DNA of 28,336 bases. It comes from a virus. Where the stretch lies: positions 1 through 28,336 of IMG/VR virus record IMGVR_UViG_3300017948_000008. One strand, 5' to 3'. Below are positions 8,322-17,787 of this stretch, in pieces. Below the pieces are notes generated by a model. That model was not told the DNA's origin. It saw only the letters and a list, made by a program, of their open reading frames with translations, and ran no database searches. The position numbers and the translations under genes are program-made. Numbering within the stretch: the stretch's first letter is position 1; the number at the start of each line of letters is the position of its first letter.

Positions 8322-8746
8322 TGCATCCCTATCTTATCCCCGCAGGAAAGCCCGATCCGTTCTGGGAGGATTCCATCCTCGTTGAAAATGCCACAGGCGC
8401 CGGTTACAACGATCCCAACACAGGTCTTCCTGACCAGGGCTCAGGTCCCGATACACCGATCATGGTGTTCCGCGACGGCCCACGAAGAAAGTTTATCGTT
8501 AATATCACGATCGTGGGTGGGGCAGGGTATTCCCTCAGTGGGAGCAATATCTTCAGCGGCGAATTGATGGGGTCCTGCGATCGGATTAATTGGTTCAACA
8601 TTGGAGCTATAGGGTTCCAGCCGGCAAACTTCTGGTCCGGGACTTTCACATCCGGAATACCTGCTACCATGATCAAGATAGGTGGCGTCTACAACTTCAT
8701 TCAAGGCAACGGCTATACCATACGGGTATTAGCTTCTGGAGGATAA
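8321..8746 (+). CDS. Beta-rich protein, possibly a virion decoration protein, member 1 of a pair (141 aa)
   Basis: After a short N-terminus (MHPYLIPAGKPDPFWEDS) the protein is mainly beta-strand: RRKFIVNITIVGGAGYSLSG, ELMGSCDRINWFNIG and a C-terminal YTIRVLASGG. The order FxDGPRR - strands - (E)GSxDxxNW - strands - Y.IRV..(A)G is shared with the next protein, suggesting an old tandem duplication of one jelly-roll-like domain. Position just before the terminase suits a virion component; no enzymatic motif is visible. Confidence 0.6.
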   Translation: MHPYLIPAGKPDPFWEDSILVENATGAGYNDPNTGLPDQGSGPDTPIMVFRDGPRRKFIVNITIVGGAGYSLSGSNIFSGELMGSCDRINWFNIGAIGFQPANFWSGTFTSGIPATMIKIGGVYNFIQGNGYTIRVLASGG

Positions 8747-8747
8747 A

Positions 8748-9113
8748 ATGGCAGAAACAACTAAAGACGTGCAAAAAGTTCAGACGCCGATGATTCATGC
8801 GTCTTGGCATAATGCTTATGACGCGGATCGTCCCATGGCGGACATCAGCCCGATGCGGTCATTTCCTGACGGCGCTCCTCGGTCCAGTTGGACGGCGAAC
8901 GTTATCGCTATCGGCGGAACAATCACTGCCATCGCGGGTGTATTGGAAGGATCCATGGACGGATCGAACTGGTACTCAGTTTTAACGATATCGACGGTAG
9001 GTTCCGTCAACAATCAGAATATCATCGCCAAACACTTTCGTGTCAGGATTACGTCCGTGACGTTTGGAACGGGCTATGCCTATCGTGTCGGCGTAACCGC
9101 CGCAGGTACCTAA
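8748..9113 (+). CDS. Beta-rich protein, possibly a virion decoration protein, member 2 of a pair (121 aa)
   Basis: It contains RSFPDGAPRSSWTANVIAIG, GVLEGSMDGSNWYSVLTIST and a C-terminal FRVRITSVTFGTGYAYRVGV stretch, following the same strand order as the preceding protein. DGSNWYS followed by an R-V-R strand is a recurring pattern of small phage virion beta-domains. The start lies one base after the upstream stop. Function inferred from fold pattern and position only. Confidence 0.6.
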   Translation: MAETTKDVQKVQTPMIHASWHNAYDADRPMADISPMRSFPDGAPRSSWTANVIAIGGTITAIAGVLEGSMDGSNWYSVLTISTVGSVNNQNIIAKHFRVRITSVTFGTGYAYRVGVTAAGT

Positions 9114-9330: not shown

Positions 9331-11580
9331 ATGAACGAGACTTTAGATCCGGCCCTACTGGACCGCATCCTGCGGGGCCGGGAAAAGGAGCCCTGGCCCC
9401 CCGCCAATTACGTAGACGAGTTTGCGCGTCGGCAAAAGCGCCTTCTGCGGATACGCTCAGATCCGGCTCTGCTGGTGGGCGCCAAGGAATATTATCGAAC
9501 GAACCCCCTGGATTTCGTGTCTCACTGGGGAACTGTGTCGGAACCCCGTGCCGCAGGCGGCACAGACCAGGATTTAACTAAAATACCTTTTGTGCCGTTC
9601 CGCAGGCAAAAAGAGTTTATACAGTTTTTGTATCAACTCCTGCAGGACCAGGAATCCGGTCTTGTCGAAAAATCCCGTGACATGGGGGCAACATGGGTCT
9701 GCTGTTTATTCTCTGTTTGGGTTTTCTTGTTCTGGCCCGGCGCCGCCATTGGCTGGGGTAGCCGCGACGCAGACCTCGTTGACAAACGCGGCGATCCTAG
9801 CTCGATTTTGGAGAAGATAAGAATCATTCTCCGTAATATTCCTCGGGAGTTTCTTCCCAAGGGATTTTCCGCAAGGGAACATTTATCTTATATGAGGATA
9901 TCAAACCCGGAGTCTGAGGCGGTTATAACGGGGGACGCGGGTGAGAATATCGGGCGTGGAGGTAGATCGTTAGTATTTTTCAAAGATGAAGCGCAGCCCG
10001 GTACCGCTAAAATACTGACCCCGGCAGGTTACCAGACCATGGCGGACATGGTTGTGGGATCACGTGTTATTGGGGAAGACGGACTCGCACACAACGTTAC
10101 ACAAGTAAAAGATTGTGGGGTTTACGATATTTATCGAGTAACTTTTAACGACGGTACTTCTGTGGAATGTAGTCCAGGCCATCTATGGACTATGGCACAT
10201 TCCAGGCCCGGAGCGGCTTTTACATTATCTACACTAGATATTGCAAAGAATCTTCCCACACGTAAGTATATAGTACCAACGCATGCTCCTGTAGTATTTG
10301 ATGAGGATTTCCATCCAGATGAAGAATTATTCCTCCAATCTCGCGGAGGCTGTACAAGGGAAGTTGTTGGCGTGACTGCGGTTGGGCGCGGTCCAGTCCG
10401 TTGTATCTCTGTAGATGCTCCACATGGTTTGTACCTAACTGACCACTGTATCGTTACTCATAATTCGGCACATTATAAGTACGCCGAAATGGTGGAAGCC
10501 GCACTATCCGACAACGCACTCATCCAAGTAGATATTTCCTCAGTCGGTGCCCCAGGAAACGTTTTCCACCGCCGTCGTGAATCCGGCGTGGATTGGACCC
10601 CCGAGCGCAAAGACTATCCCAAAAGTCAGGTTCGCGTTTTCGTCATGGACTGGAGCGACCACCCTGCCAAAACCCAGGAATGGTACGATGGTCGTAAGAA
10701 GAAAGCCACGGAAGAAGGCCTTCTTCATGTGTTCGCCCAGGAAATCGATCGGGACTATTCCGCCTCTATCGAAGGCGTGATCATCAACAGCGAATGGGTG
10801 CGCAGCGCCGTAGACGCGCACCTAAAGTTGGGCTTTGACGACACAGGGGGTTGGGTAGCTGGTCTCGACGTTGCTGATGAGGGCGGCGATACGACAGCGC
10901 TTGCCATCCGCAAGGGTGTGATCCTTCGCGAGGTCCGGGAATGGGGTGATCGCGACACAGGCGTCACCACACGCACGGCTGTAGCGGCCTTACGTGACAA
11001 ATGCCCCGTGGACCTGCAGTACGATTCTGTCGGCATGGGCGCAGGCGTAAAGGCCGAGGGGAACCGCCTCGCGCAGGAAAAGAAGATCCCGCGAGGCCTG
11101 CGCTTTGTGCCCTGGAATGCAGGGGCACAGGTCCTGTTCAAGGATCGGCGGGTTGTCCCAGGAGACAAGAACTCCCCAAAGAACAGCGATTTCTACCTCA
11201 ACCTCAAGGCCCAGGCTTGGTGGAATCTGGCCCGGCGTTTCGAGCACACGTACCGTGCGCTGACGGATCCCAATTTCACGTTCGATGTGGATGATCTTAT
11301 CTCTTTACCTTCGAGTCTTCCGTTGATCCAGAAAATCATCAAGGAGCTTTCGCAGCCTACGGCCTCCTACAATAGCCGCATGAAACTGGTCATCGATAAA
11401 CGCCCAGATGGTATGCGCTCTCCGAACCTGGCGGACGCTATTGTGATGGCTTACTGGCCCATCACGGCAGGGAAGCCGATGAAAATCACACCCGAGATCT
11501 TGGCAAGGGCCGCTGTGCCGATGCGCAGGAATCCCTTTCCACCTGCGTTCTCAACCAATTATGGTGGCAGAAGACGTTGA
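9331..11580 (+). CDS. terL: Terminase large subunit (TerL) interrupted by a class 3 mini-intein (749 aa precursor)
   Basis: Packaging ATPase/nuclease that drives phage DNA into the capsid. Extein features: Walker A-like SRDMGATW (115-122); Walker B LVFFKDE ending in Asp219-Glu220; RNase H-fold nuclease acidic residues Asp513 (AGLDVADEGGDTTA), Asp565 (LQYDSVGMG) and Asp702 (SPNLADAIVMAYWP). The intein occupies residues 221-378. Removing it joins FFKDE to SAHYKYAEMVEAALSD, restoring the usual continuous TerL motif, and gives a mature protein of 591 residues. GGGTGGAAT precedes the ATG. No small terminase was recognised nearby. Confidence 0.95.
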   Translation: MNETLDPALLDRILRGREKEPWPPANYVDEFARRQKRLLRIRSDPALLVGAKEYYRTNPLDFVSHWGTVSEPRAAGGTDQDLTKIPFVPFRRQKEFIQFLYQLLQDQESGLVEKSRDMGATWVCCLFSVWVFLFWPGAAIGWGSRDADLVDKRGDPSSILEKIRIILRNIPREFLPKGFSAREHLSYMRISNPESEAVITGDAGENIGRGGRSLVFFKDEAQPGTAKILTPAGYQTMADMVVGSRVIGEDGLAHNVTQVKDCGVYDIYRVTFNDGTSVECSPGHLWTMAHSRPGAAFTLSTLDIAKNLPTRKYIVPTHAPVVFDEDFHPDEELFLQSRGGCTREVVGVTAVGRGPVRCISVDAPHGLYLTDHCIVTHNSAHYKYAEMVEAALSDNALIQVDISSVGAPGNVFHRRRESGVDWTPERKDYPKSQVRVFVMDWSDHPAKTQEWYDGRKKKATEEGLLHVFAQEIDRDYSASIEGVIINSEWVRSAVDAHLKLGFDDTGGWVAGLDVADEGGDTTALAIRKGVILREVREWGDRDTGVTTRTAVAALRDKCPVDLQYDSVGMGAGVKAEGNRLAQEKKIPRGLRFVPWNAGAQVLFKDRRVVPGDKNSPKNSDFYLNLKAQAWWNLARRFEHTYRALTDPNFTFDVDDLISLPSSLPLIQKIIKELSQPTASYNSRMKLVIDKRPDGMRSPNLADAIVMAYWPITAGKPMKITPEILARAAVPMRRNPFPPAFSTNYGGRRR
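9991..10464 (+). mobile_element. Class 3 mini-intein in TerL (158 aa, no endonuclease)
   Basis: In-frame insertion encoding AQPGTAKILTPAGYQTM... and ending IVTHN before Ser+1. Residue 1 is Ala rather than Cys/Ser. The three diagnostic class 3 residues are all present: Trp66 two residues after the block B His (SPGHLW), Cys138 at block F position 4 (PVRCISV) and Thr156 at block G position 5 (IVTHN). His157-Asn158 end the intein. Length and content leave no room for a homing endonuclease. The insertion lies between the Walker B Glu and the following Ser, a highly conserved site. Confidence 0.93.
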
Positions 11581-11830: not shown

Positions 11831-12291
11831 GCTACATGTGCGAGTGTAACACCTGCCTTGCAGCCCGTTCGTTCGCACGGGATGCCAAGCCGAGTGGATT
11901 GGGCGCCAAAATGGCAAACGATCCGCTGCAGTCGGGCAAGTCCCAAAAGGTTGTGAGTCATAACATAAAGGTAGAAAAAAACGCGGGTAAGCCCCAGAAG
12001 CAAGCCGTCGCCATCGCTCTCAACAAATCCCGTGAATCCGAGGACGACGATCCCGGCATGGGCATGATGGACGTGGAGGACGAAAAAGAGTTCGGTGTCG
12101 AGCGCAAAAAGAAGCACTTGGGGGAAAATTCCGGTGCGGAATTTTCGGTGGAGTCGATCCGGCAAAAGGTACGCCGTAGCAAGCGGACAGGCCGCTTTGG
12201 GGCACGGCCTTCTGCGAAGGCAGGCGCCCGTGACGGCTTCGAAGAAGGTGGAGAAGTCGAAGAGCCCATGACGGCCAAATATCGTGCCTGA
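11827..12291 (+). CDS. Phage protein with QKVVSHNI/QAVAIAL motif (154 aa)
   Basis: An N-terminal CECNTC cysteine cluster is followed by GKSQKVVSHNIKVEKNAGKP and QKQAVAIALNKS, a motif seen in many small phage proteins near the head genes. The remainder is highly charged (DDDPGMGMMDVEDEKEF; KKVRRSKRTGRF-like basic section) and likely disordered. It overlaps the portal start by 8 bases. The protein may contact DNA or act in head assembly; unproven. Confidence 0.65.
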   Translation: MSYMCECNTCLAARSFARDAKPSGLGAKMANDPLQSGKSQKVVSHNIKVEKNAGKPQKQAVAIALNKSRESEDDDPGMGMMDVEDEKEFGVERKKKHLGENSGAEFSVESIRQKVRRSKRTGRFGARPSAKAGARDGFEEGGEVEEPMTAKYRA

Positions 12292-14791
12292 TCCCGCTGA
12301 GAAGGCCCCCTTGGACAAAGGCCCGCTAGACTGGCAGGCGGCGCTTGCGCGGGCGAAACAGGTCGCAAGCCAATCACATCTTCGTGTAGACCCTTTCGCG
12401 TCTACGCGCAGCGCACATCCTCCTGGCATTGAAAAGGTATCTGGAAACGCTGCTGATGAAAGCATCGCGAGCATAAAAGCCGTTTCCGGTTGGGCCAAGG
12501 ATGATTGGAATCAGCTTGCAGGCACAGGCCTCGCGATATCCAGCATATTTGCCGAAGGCCTGGAATTTCCTGGTTACCCATTTCTTTCTGCGTTAGCGCA
12601 GCGCCCCGAATATCGGGCTATGGTGGAAATAACCGCCACGCAGATGACTCGCAAGTGGATACAGTTGCGGTCAACCGACAGTGAGGACGAGGAGAAGGCT
12701 AAGAAGATTGCTGACTTGGAAAAAGAGTTAGATCGTCTTCAGGCGCGAGACTGCTTCCGACGTGCGGCCATGTTGGACGGTTATTTCGGGCGATCTCATC
12801 TATACATTGACACTGGAGACACTAATAGCCCGGAGGAACTAAAAACTTCGCTTGGCAATGGCCGTGACGCGATGTCGAAGCAGAAGTTCAAGAAAAACAA
12901 GAAACATATTAGAAAACTAAAGGTCGTCGAGCCGGTTTGGTGTTATCCAACCAGCTATAATGCTAGCGATCCTTTGTCGGACAATTGGTACACGCCTGAG
13001 ACATGGTTTGTCATGGGCAAGGAGATTCACGCATCTCGGCTGCTCAAATTTTCAATGCGGGAAGTTCCCGATCTTTTGAAGCCTGCTTATTCATTTGGAG
13101 GCATATCTCTTTCGCAACTGGCGAAGCCTTACGTAGATAACTGGATTCGGACACGTCAATCCGTGGCGGATATTGTCCACGCATTTAGCGTGTTCGTGCT
13201 GTCTTCGAATATTGCTGAGACGCTTCAGCCTGGGGGTGAGCAATTATTTCAACGTGCCGATTTGTTTAATCTGATGCGCGACAACCGTGGTTTGATGCTG
13301 ATTGACAAGGATTCGGAACTTTTCCAAAACGTATCGGCACCTCTTGGTAGTCTTGATGCTTTGCAAGCACAGACTCAAGAGCATATGTGCCTTCCCGCAG
13401 AAGCCTTGATCACAACGACGCGCGGCCTGATAGCGATCAAAGACGTGACTACAAATGATCGTGTACTAACGCGTGTTGGTTTTGCGCCTATAAAATGGGT
13501 AGGTGTAACAGATACACGAGAATCTTTGGTAGAGATCAAGGCTGGTGGGGCTGTTTTGCGGGTAACGGAGGAGCATCCTGTATGGGTGGAGTCGATAAGC
13601 GAGTTTGTCAGTGCGCGGAATGTAAATCGTTCCCACCACCTACTCGCTCTCAAAACAAAAAACCAGGGAAATATGGAGAATCTGTCGCATGGCGAGGGCG
13701 TTGGTGGACATGTGACCCCCGTTATTTCCATAATTCAAAAGCTGGGGGCAATCTTCATCATGTCATGTGGGAGGCGCACAAGGGGCCTATTCCGCAGGGC
13801 TATGACGTTCATCACAAAGACGGTGATGGACACAACAATAGCTGGGACAATCTTGAACTTCTATCGCGCAAAGTACACCACGCGCAACACGTTAGAGTCG
13901 GATTCGATGTGCCAGTCTCTAATGAAAAATGTAAAAAAGTATGTGAAGTCTGCGGTAATCAATACGAAATATCGTATCGTTCAGATCTTGCCATTCGCGC
14001 CCGATATTGTTCCGTTGCCTGTAAGTGGCGTGCCTGGAGGATTCGTAGTGGATGGACTCCGAGCACGCATTATAAACAATGCATTGAGTGCAGTGCAGAC
14101 TTTACCAGTAAACTTAGCCACACACGATTCTGTTCTAGCAGATGCGGTCAGCGTGCCAGTTACGCTCGTAAACGTGATCGAAGTTCCAAAACAACCGGTA
14201 TATAATATTGAAGTTGCAGAAGGATGGCCTCAAGAATTTTTTGCAGACGGATTACTTGTTCACAATAGTACCGTCTGCCGGGTGCCTTTGATCTTTCTCA
14301 CAGGCATCACCCCTTCGGGCTTGAATGCTTCCAGCGAAGGCGAAATTCGGGTCTTCTATGATTGGATCGAGGCGTGCCAAGAAGTTTTATTCAGACCTAA
14401 TCTAACAAGAATCATTCATTTTGCAATGCTAAATCTTTGGGGAGAGGTAGACGAGACCATTGTATTTAACTTTGCACCATTGTGGAGTCTGGACGAAACT
14501 GCCTTGGCTAACAAGCGTAAGCTCGATGCAGATGCCGATGTGCATTTGCTCGACGCAGGTGTTCTATCTTCGTTGGAAATCAGGAAGCGAATTGCTGGAG
14601 ATCGGGATTCGCCATATACGTCGCTCGACGTAGAGGATGTGCCTGAACTTCTTGTCGAAGAAGCAGAGGGTTTGGAGCCAGCCGGTGGACGGCCAAATCC
14701 TCTGGCCCTAAAAGCAGCGGGAATAAGTGATCCTAAAGAGGAGAATCATCCTGGCAATACCTCTGAGAAAGACAACGCGAAAGAAGTTTGA
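12284..14791 (+). CDS. Portal protein (DUF1073-type) interrupted by an intein (835 aa precursor)
   Basis: Forms the dodecameric ring through which DNA enters the head. The N-terminal extein has the DUF1073 pattern: LSALAQRPEYRAMVEITATQ, ARDCFRRAAMLDGYFGRSHL, VVEPVWCYPTSYNASDP, RLLKFSMREVPDLLKP and GSLDALQAQTQEHM. After the intein (369-661) it continues STVCRVPLIFLTGITPSGLN and EGEIRVFYDWIEACQE. Joining QEHM to STVCRVP recreates the conserved family motif. The mature product would be 542 residues. GTG start overlaps the previous gene; its ribosome site is weak. A second protein is encoded out of frame inside the intein. Confidence 0.93.
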   Translation: MPDPAEKAPLDKGPLDWQAALARAKQVASQSHLRVDPFASTRSAHPPGIEKVSGNAADESIASIKAVSGWAKDDWNQLAGTGLAISSIFAEGLEFPGYPFLSALAQRPEYRAMVEITATQMTRKWIQLRSTDSEDEEKAKKIADLEKELDRLQARDCFRRAAMLDGYFGRSHLYIDTGDTNSPEELKTSLGNGRDAMSKQKFKKNKKHIRKLKVVEPVWCYPTSYNASDPLSDNWYTPETWFVMGKEIHASRLLKFSMREVPDLLKPAYSFGGISLSQLAKPYVDNWIRTRQSVADIVHAFSVFVLSSNIAETLQPGGEQLFQRADLFNLMRDNRGLMLIDKDSELFQNVSAPLGSLDALQAQTQEHMCLPAEALITTTRGLIAIKDVTTNDRVLTRVGFAPIKWVGVTDTRESLVEIKAGGAVLRVTEEHPVWVESISEFVSARNVNRSHHLLALKTKNQGNMENLSHGEGVGGHVTPVISIIQKLGAIFIMSCGRRTRGLFRRAMTFITKTVMDTTIAGTILNFYRAKYTTRNTLESDSMCQSLMKNVKKYVKSAVINTKYRIVQILPFAPDIVPLPVSGVPGGFVVDGLRARIINNALSAVQTLPVNLATHDSVLADAVSVPVTLVNVIEVPKQPVYNIEVAEGWPQEFFADGLLVHNSTVCRVPLIFLTGITPSGLNASSEGEIRVFYDWIEACQEVLFRPNLTRIIHFAMLNLWGEVDETIVFNFAPLWSLDETALANKRKLDADADVHLLDAGVLSSLEIRKRIAGDRDSPYTSLDVEDVPELLVEEAEGLEPAGGRPNPLALKAAGISDPKEENHPGNTSEKDNAKEV
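13567..13573 (+). promoter_or_regulatory. Internal Shine-Dalgarno for the nested HNH gene
   Basis: GGAGGAG, 8 bases before the ATG at 13582 in the HNH frame. In the portal frame the same bases encode the Glu-Glu of the intein block B T-E-E-H motif. Confidence 0.6.
13582..14205 (+). CDS. HNH homing endonuclease nested out of frame in the portal intein (207 aa)
   Basis: A likely DNA endonuclease that would promote homing of the intein. In the -1 frame relative to portal: HHVMWEAHKGPIPQGYDVHH, KDGDGHNNSWDNLELL and SRKVHHAQHV form a full HNH motif (His pair at 13810-13815, Asn at 13849, His near 13876-13890). Two zinc-finger-like Cys sets follow (CEVCG...YCSVAC and CIECS...FCSSRC), as in free-standing phage HNH enzymes. 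The chosen start has GGAGGAG 8 bases upstream; residues 1-27 overlay block B and look non-conserved. Alternative expression by -1 frameshift at 13657-13663 is possible, and the frame is also open back to an ATG at 13495. It stops inside block F of the intein. Confidence 0.85.
   Translation: MGGVDKRVCQCAECKSFPPPTRSQNKKPGKYGESVAWRGRWWTCDPRYFHNSKAGGNLHHVMWEAHKGPIPQGYDVHHKDGDGHNNSWDNLELLSRKVHHAQHVRVGFDVPVSNEKCKKVCEVCGNQYEISYRSDLAIRARYCSVACKWRAWRIRSGWTPSTHYKQCIECSADFTSKLSHTRFCSSRCGQRASYARKRDRSSKTTGI
13657..13663 (+). promoter_or_regulatory. Candidate -1 ribosomal slippery heptamer
   Basis: A AAA AAC in exact phase with the portal frame (ACA AAA AAC). Slipping back one base continues as CCA GGG AAA TAT in the HNH frame. 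It lies just where recognisable HNH-protein sequence begins. GGAAATA soon after it and TATTTCC around 13723-13729 could pair downstream, but no strong pseudoknot was worked out. Confidence 0.45.
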
Positions 14792-16677: not shown

Positions 16678-17787
16678 GTGAACGCCCCCCTCGCCCTAGC
16701 ACCATCGTCGGCCATTCCCATGGGTGGCCGGCGCTCATCTAAAAAAGCCGCTGACGCAAAGATCGTCGCGGCTGGGATACTTATCGTTGCCAGCAATCAG
16801 ACTGCGCTTTTCCTGAAGCGCAGTAAAGAGGGCGATCATTCTGGAGAATGGTGTATTCCTGGAGGAAAGTGCGAGGACAAAGAGCCTTTGGATGTTTGCG
16901 CCATTCGTGAAACCCGTGAAGAAACGGGCTGGGTTGCCGAAGGTGATTTGACCAAGATTTATTCAGGAGAGACCATTCCGGGTGTAACGTTCACGACATT
17001 TCGTACCGATATACAAAATCAATTCATCCCAACCTTGGATTCTGAGCATACTGGTTACGCATGGGCGCCTTTACACGATCCTCCCGAGCCGGTTCATCCG
17101 GGCCTTCGCGCGGTCTTGGACAATATGAATCTTCGCGCATCAGATAATATGCCCTTACGTATTGCCAAGGACAAGAAGTCGGTACGATCATTTGATCCGG
17201 ACGGACGGCTTCATGTTGCCGTGACCAACATAAGTAAGGCCTGTGTCAATCCATACTATGGCCATGAAATTCCTGGGTACGAGATACTCGGCCTGGAGCC
17301 TAATAAAATATACAAACTTCTTCGTGATCCGGAAGAATTGCAAAAAGCAGTAGATTCTTATAATGGTGTTCCGTTACTATTGCAACATCAGGCCGCCACG
17401 GCAGATGATCATCCCAGCGATCTTGTAATCGGCGCGACGGGAACGGACGCCGAATTTGTTTACCCGTACCTGCGAAATTCGCTGGTAATCTGGCCGGAAC
17501 ATGCTGTAGAGTTGATTGAGAGTGGGGAACAGAAAGAACTTTCTTGCGGCTACCGCTATACACCTGATATGACTCCCGGTACTTTCAAGGGTGAGCCGTA
17601 CGATGGTGTGATGCGGGACATTGTTGGCAACCACGTCGCTCTTGTTAAAGAAGGTCGTGCGGGATCTGATGTTGCAGTAGGGGATAGAGCGTTGATCGTG
17701 CCGGAAGACGTTGCTTGGGTCCTCCTGGAGCACGCGATAAAGAGCATGAGACACCGAAGCGATGGGAAAGTTCAGCGAAGCGCTTAA
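16678..17787 (+). CDS. Fusion of a Nudix hydrolase and a DUF2213 head protein (369 aa)
   Basis: Residues ~27-145 are a Nudix domain with an intact box at 63-85 (G-x5-E-x7-REUxEExGU; catalytic RETREETGW), predicting hydrolysis of a nucleoside-diphosphate-linked substrate. Residues ~170-350 match DUF2213: [40 protein letters not shown] and [20 protein letters not shown], a family thought to act in prohead assembly or as maturation protease. GTG start 7 bases after the previous stop. The end overlaps the scaffold-like gene by 26 bases. Confidence 0.85.

Follow-up and report, generated by a model that had tools for sequence, protein, structure and literature searches.

Homing endonucleases are generally described in frame inside inteins, where the enzyme must fold without spoiling splicing. 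The portal gene analyzed here carries an intein and an HNH endonuclease that are read from the same bases in different frames, and this raises the question of whether one stretch of DNA can serve both a splicing domain and a separate nuclease gene. The locus lies in a metagenome-derived IMG/VR virus record, IMGVR_UViG_3300017948_000008, whose 28,336 bases were analyzed as a whole and are referred to below as the window. We consider a cis intein with a separately made, overprinted HNH endonuclease to be the best reading of this locus, with a probability of roughly 88%. Both ORFs, the insertion and the empty site in a sibling phage, the conserved splicing residues, the constraint in the two frames, the recurrence of the layout and the anatomy of the start and stop of the HNH gene were obtained by computation and are given in turn.

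An intein and an HNH gene on shared bases

The portal frame can be read without a stop codon from 12284 to 14791. The whole ORF matches the portal family PHROG 146 (E=7.7e-92) and Pfam Phage_portal_3 (E=2.9e-68), and portal-type matches flank the insert at 13388-14266 on both sides (Table 1). The C-extein was also assigned by comparison with the sibling contig, L002, whose empty site joins it directly to the N-extein. Regarding the insert itself, every mark of a class 1 intein is present: a cysteine at the first position (C1), TEEH as the TxxH motif of block B, HN at the end and a serine at +1. C1, His63 of block B and the last residue, Asn293, are invariant among 44 homologous overprinted inteins. 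The Pfam and NCBIfam intein models score below their cut-offs on the window intein. Judging from its motifs, the element is a class-1-type intein in the portal gene, and it is predicted to splice. Further along the window, at 16678-17787, a Nudix-hydrolase-like domain at the N-terminus is joined to a protein resembling head maturation proteases (PHROG 1198 and 2229).

The -1 frame is stop-free over 13459-14202. The HNH gene, which begins at the ATG at 13582 and ends at the TAA at 14203-14205, encodes a product of 207 aa that matches Pfam HNH_3 (E=1.4e-15) and the HNH endonuclease family PHROG 15471 (E=3.1e-19); its catalytic His/Asn and Cys columns are invariant in the alignment. It sits between intein blocks B and F, with its Shine-Dalgarno (SD) sequence in block B and its stop codon in block F. 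A preliminary description of this DNA had reported the portal frame and the -1 HNH frame, blocks A, B, F and G and the Cys sets, all of which we located; it had put the stretch shared by both genes at about 540 bases, and the overlap is actually about 620 nt.

AlphaFold, using the window intein and 40 homologues, gave pLDDT values of 92-98 for residues 1-90 and 89-98 for residues 251-294, and of around 45 for residues 93-247, a stretch of about 155 residues that matches the overlap. The model is thus confident in a Hint fold interrupted by a predicted disordered linker. With this model, Foldseek recovered mini-inteins (Ssp DnaB variant, E=1.6e-5; target TM 0.72-0.81). The model of the HNH protein had a mean pLDDT of 83.7, and its single Foldseek match was a weak one to I-HmuI (E=0.085).

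One could propose that the insert is removed as RNA, like an intron, or that it is kept unspliced like the ShiLan element, given that unspliced inserts with out-of-frame HNH genes are known (PMC11855218). No Rfam intron match was found in 13000-14700 at E values up to 1, all the intein blocks are there with a predicted Hint fold, and the ShiLan element is without splicing motifs (PMC11855218). We find this explanation hardly credible.

If the element is instead a cis-splicing intein with an independent homing endonuclease gene nested at -1 in its B-F linker, ribosomes in the portal frame would produce a precursor from which the Hint domain, carrying an unstructured linker, would excise itself and join the portal halves. 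Other ribosomes, led by the SD of block B, would begin at the internal ATG and release a free HNH/zinc-ribbon endonuclease, with termination inside block F. This enzyme would cut intein-less alleles, and repair would copy intein and HNH together. The main constraint on the linker in the intein frame would then be the absence of stop codons. What we infer from sequence is that the intein splices and that the HNH is translated, cleaves its target and homes.

Table 1. Features of the portal locus (positions in the window) and the antisense endonuclease genes of two other loci
Feature	Position	Strand	Basis or remark
Portal protein, N-extein	12284..13387	+	PHROG 146, Pfam Phage_portal_3 (whole ORF)
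Intein, portal frame	13388..14266	+	C1 start, HN end, Hint fold predicted
Intein block A	13388-13426	+	Located in sequence; starts at C1
Intein block B TEEHPVW	13565-13585	+	Located in sequence
Shine-Dalgarno GGAGGAG of HNH gene	13567..13573	+	Built from block B codons
HNH/zinc-ribbon endonuclease gene, -1 frame relative to portal	13582..14205	+	Pfam HNH_3, PHROG 15471
Intein linker, portal frame (intein residues 93-247)	13664..14128	+	Predicted disordered; probable by-product of HNH frame
HNH core	13753-13890	+	
Cys sets of HNH protein	13942-14022 and 14080-14145	+	Located in sequence
Intein block F VYNIEVAEGWPQEFFADG	14198-14251	+	Located in sequence
HNH stop TAA	14203..14205	+	Formed by Tyr-Asn codons of block F
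Intein block G LLVHN, then S	14252-14266; S+1 codon 14267-14269	+	
Portal protein, C-extein from Ser+1	14267..14791	+	PHROG 30637 and 4660 match residues 663-793
Antisense Vsr/DUF559-type zinc-finger endonuclease in intein	L253:1361-2191	-	Codon register
Antisense Vsr/DUF559-type zinc-finger endonuclease in intein	L236:1993-2829	-	Codon register

Openness and selection in the two frames

It had been estimated in the preliminary description that a frame of this length stays open only once in several thousand cases. This is too strong: given the HNH protein, the portal frame of the window is open by chance with a probability of 0.068 when its own codons are shuffled and of 0.0625 under phage codon usage, so at this locus alone its openness could be due to chance (P about 0.06). 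Significance comes from the family. Across 49 loci, 154 stops were expected from the codon usage of the host genes and 0 were observed; these loci had been sorted by openness, and the fair control is given by the free-standing and split homologues, whose same frame holds means of 6.0 stops (free-standing, open in 2/20) and 7.2 stops (split, open in 0/11). Besides, in the two +1 cases tested, 17-19 stops were expected and none is present. Chance openness is excluded across the family, though not for the window alone.

L122, from an Armatimonadota MAG, holds the nearest relative found of both the intein and the HNH; its host gene is terminase-like. Inside the overlap, the window and L122 share an identity of 0.50 in the HNH and 0.29 in the intein frame, with 57/46/88 substitutions at HNH codon positions 1/2/3, while the intein N region shows 33/30/50 at positions 1/2/3 of the intein codons. 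The closest pair found, L085 and L098, gave 4/12/36 inside the overlap and 7/5/24 outside, and differs by 0.08 in the HNH and by 0.26 in the intein frame. The direction of codon-position constraint was the same in 9/9 pairs compared, and in the linker (13664-14128) the intein frame evolves faster than the HNH frame. This pattern implies that the Hint parts are selected through the intein frame and the middle through the HNH frame. Constraint across homologues, whose computation in both frames the preliminary description had proposed, switches frame at the overlap and indicates that both products are under selection. The middle of the intein would be a by-product of the HNH gene, chiefly needing to remain open.

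Alternatively, the intein could be dead: the HNH gene would have broken the portal, the intein motifs would be leftovers and the openness of the portal frame an accident. The chance openness of 6-7% at the window locus would allow this, and the linker residues are unconstrained as amino acids. Yet the splicing residues are invariant, the N part of the intein is under constraint in its own frame and the expected stops are missing throughout the family; moreover, portal and terminase are essential for virions. Taken together, we judge a dead intein to be very improbable indeed.

Recurrence, expression and mobility of the layout

The search for relatives with the same dual-frame pattern, which had also been suggested, was productive. 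No exact peptides of the window HNH were found in IMG/VR, and its homologues there were recovered with a profile built from five relatives; tblastn searches of phages with the N part of the intein gave weak matches only. Non-redundant loci from all sets comprised 122 with the HNH at -1, 5 at +1, 15 split inteins and 32 without an intein; the loci were seeded from intein-linked HNHs and from an intein motif, and these frequencies are not those of all inteins. By profile search, the IMG/VR and phage-record loci gave 52 cases in which IntN, an HNH at -1 and IntC follow one another within one open frame, with 3 at +1, and prokaryote genome contigs yielded 16 loci at -1 and 1 at +1, with carriers that include Asaia astilbis, a Thermoplasmatales archaeon and a Nitrosotalea MAG. 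The layout is also found in two isolated phages, Tetrasphaera phage TJE1 and Acinetobacter phage Highwayman, in both of which a CDS annotated only as terminase runs straight across the HNH insert. Host genes are mostly those of the terminase large subunit, with N-exteins matching PHROG 2 in 70/114 and portals in 2/114.

We also scanned for inteins independently of the HNH, with a degenerate DNA motif that was taken from these inteins and does not draw an unbiased sample. Among the 75 inteins with both ends, 63 carry the HNH at -1, and the remainder consists of 1 weak in-frame HNH match, 6 mini-inteins and 5 other inserts (one in-frame LAGLIDADG and four antisense Vsr-type, three of these near-identical). 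One further motif match, with a 2.4-kb gap, was dropped as spurious. According to these results, the overprinted layout is common in phages and not a one-off. Some loci hold more than one such element: L060 (109-942 and 1846-2712) and L131 (1730-2746 and 3176-4132) each have two overprinted HNH inteins, and in L260 an overprinted HNH intein and a canonical in-frame LAGLIDADG intein lie near each other (8369-9083 and 9338-10300).

Hence, the idea that the window holds an ordinary in-frame HNH intein disrupted by two sequencing or assembly indels, near 13657-13663 and upstream of block F respectively, appears extremely unlikely. The stretch at 13650-13663 is rich in homopolymers and the window derives from a metagenome. 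However, the same -1 layout occurs in more than 100 independent loci, including the sequenced isolates TJE1, Highwayman and Asaia astilbis, and the conservation of the HNH frame with L122 starts upstream of the homopolymer (DKRVCxCxEC). An in-frame HNH is, in addition, rare in the HNH family of these inteins. Two indels, or homologues with the HNH all in frame, had been named in the preliminary description as outcomes that would overturn its claim; we looked for both and found neither, the homologues being overwhelmingly out of frame. Its proposal that a mini-intein was invaded or re-framed holds as far as the separate endonuclease is concerned, with its own start and SD and with constraint in both frames; the part about a local re-framing does not fit so widespread a layout.

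Regarding expression of the HNH, a candidate start was present in 126 non-redundant loci, where the start codon is ATG in 121 and its median distance beyond the IntN match is 18 nt. An SD of at least 4 bases precedes 50% of these starts compared with 13% of control ATGs, and half of the overprinted loci are without a clear SD. The stop is reached inside the IntC match, at a median depth of 28 nt. One could argue that the HNH is instead made by -1 programmed ribosomal frameshifting, as a portal-IntN-HNH fusion, because it is nearly always at -1 and the window has a slippery heptamer, A AAA AAC, in the portal frame inside the overlap (13657-13663). Right-frame heptamers are nevertheless rarer than chance (16 loci versus 32 hits expected), ATGs with an SD are enriched at the HNH start, and neither the +1 nor the antisense cases can arise by a -1 shift. 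The heptamer of the window was judged coincidental, as the conserved N-terminus of its HNH begins upstream of it. The enrichment of SD and ATG and the scarcity of heptamers favor internal initiation, and frameshifting seems very unlikely.

The sibling contig L002 has a portal 88% identical to that of the window. At the insertion site, it reads ...QEHL/STVCRVPL and is empty, compared with ...QEHM/intein/STVCRVPL in the window; L002 and other portals with an empty site provide intein-free alleles. In the terminase gene the situation is reversed: L002 has a full intein with a LAGLIDADG endonuclease apparently in frame, as judged by eye, and the corresponding place in the window is occupied by a mini-intein. 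From this comparison, the two siblings are told apart at one site by the intein as such and at the other by the endonuclease. Such presence and absence of the intein between siblings would agree with homing. The terminase large subunit mini-intein of the window (9991-10464) starts with Ala and ends with IVTHN/S; block B has a Trp and block F a Cys, and it resembles a class 3 (WCT) intein.

Evolution, related systems and meaning

In a tree of the HNHs, the cis(-1) label needs 26 changes, at least 8 of which are forced by well-supported branches; support is poor at most deep forks, and the window is on a long branch. The overprinted HNHs appear to have no clean single origin in this tree. Similarities of inteins and HNHs correlate weakly overall (rho 0.13, inside the permutation range), and in the 100 most similar HNH pairs the inteins are equally similar (0.55 and 0.55). 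We read this as probable co-movement in the short term and reshuffling in the long term; since the nearest relative, L122, is in a terminase gene, intein and HNH seem to have travelled together at least recently. Among split loci, the HNH is at -1 in 8/11, a bias that would be compatible with splitting after overprinting. In Vibrio phages 1.238 and 1.245 (L028 and L041), the terminase intein is split and its halves flank an HNH gene that is not annotated, a fractured-gene layout within the same HNH family as the window. Shrunken (L229) and lost (mini-intein) forms point to the usual decay cycle.

Endonucleases of another type were found on the opposite strand. Those of L253 and of the L236 group (Table 1) match Pfam DUF559 with E=3e-10 and 1e-9, and the intein frame is open across them, with 6.1 (L253) and 18.0 (L236) stops expected under the codon usage of the host genes and none seen. 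Further antisense Vsr-type inteins are L207, L213 and, as a third and more distant case, L308. In L311 (2742-3860), a sense Vsr-type endonuclease lies at +1 relative to the intein frame, which is a single open ORF. Relatives of the Vsr-type enzyme were also found in frame.

Canonical full-length inteins, with LAGLIDADG or less often HNH enzymes, have the same Hint domain, an endonuclease between blocks B and F and a presumed homing cycle; their endonuclease is in frame, whereas that of the window, at -1, is a separate ORF with its own start and stop. In fractured genes, reportedly described by Dassa et al. in 2009, the intein is split and a free-standing endonuclease gene lies between its two parts. 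They resemble the window in that a phage endonuclease, in some cases of Vsr type, has a gene of its own flanked by the parts of an intein. Their host gene is broken, whereas here the portal frame continues from 12284 to 14791, the intein frame crosses the endonuclease gene and splicing is predicted to occur in cis.

Our literature searches for inteins with an out-of-frame endonuclease found the ShiLan work alone. The ShiLan domain, an out-of-frame HNH insert in phage DNA methylases, lacks an RBS and is no intein (PMC11855218), and the same kind of methylase insert is mentioned in a genome report (PMC12613952). As in the window, an HNH with zinc fingers is out of frame and the host frame gains no stop; the ShiLan domain has no intein motifs, Hint fold or detectable RBS, in contrast to the full set of splicing blocks and the SD seen here. 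For overlapping reading frames in actinobacteriophages, PMC11855218 cites Gosselin et al. 2025 (doi 10.1101/2025.01.02.630785), on actinobacteriophage inteins of non-canonical architecture, a preprint that may itself have reported actinophage inteins with an endonuclease out of frame. The passages that a term search reached in a survey of mycobacteriophage inteins (PMC5050341) place terminase inteins in the ATPase domain and do not mention out-of-frame endonucleases.

We are evenly divided on the broader proposal that the nested, overprinted endonuclease (at -1, sometimes at +1, sometimes antisense and Vsr-type) is a distinct and common architecture of phage inteins, undescribed as such, that separates the supply of endonuclease from splicing and bridges to split inteins. 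Separate genes on shared bases would make independent dosage and timing possible and leave the linker almost free, save for stop codons. They would also offer a route from cis to split inteins: a break in the shared frame, together with a new start for the C-part, would yield a fractured locus, and such loci occur within the same endonuclease family. As seen in TJE1 and Highwayman, annotation can hide phage endonucleases of this kind, and the loci collected here amount to a sizeable natural sample of overprinted gene pairs in which the evolution of overlaps can be studied.
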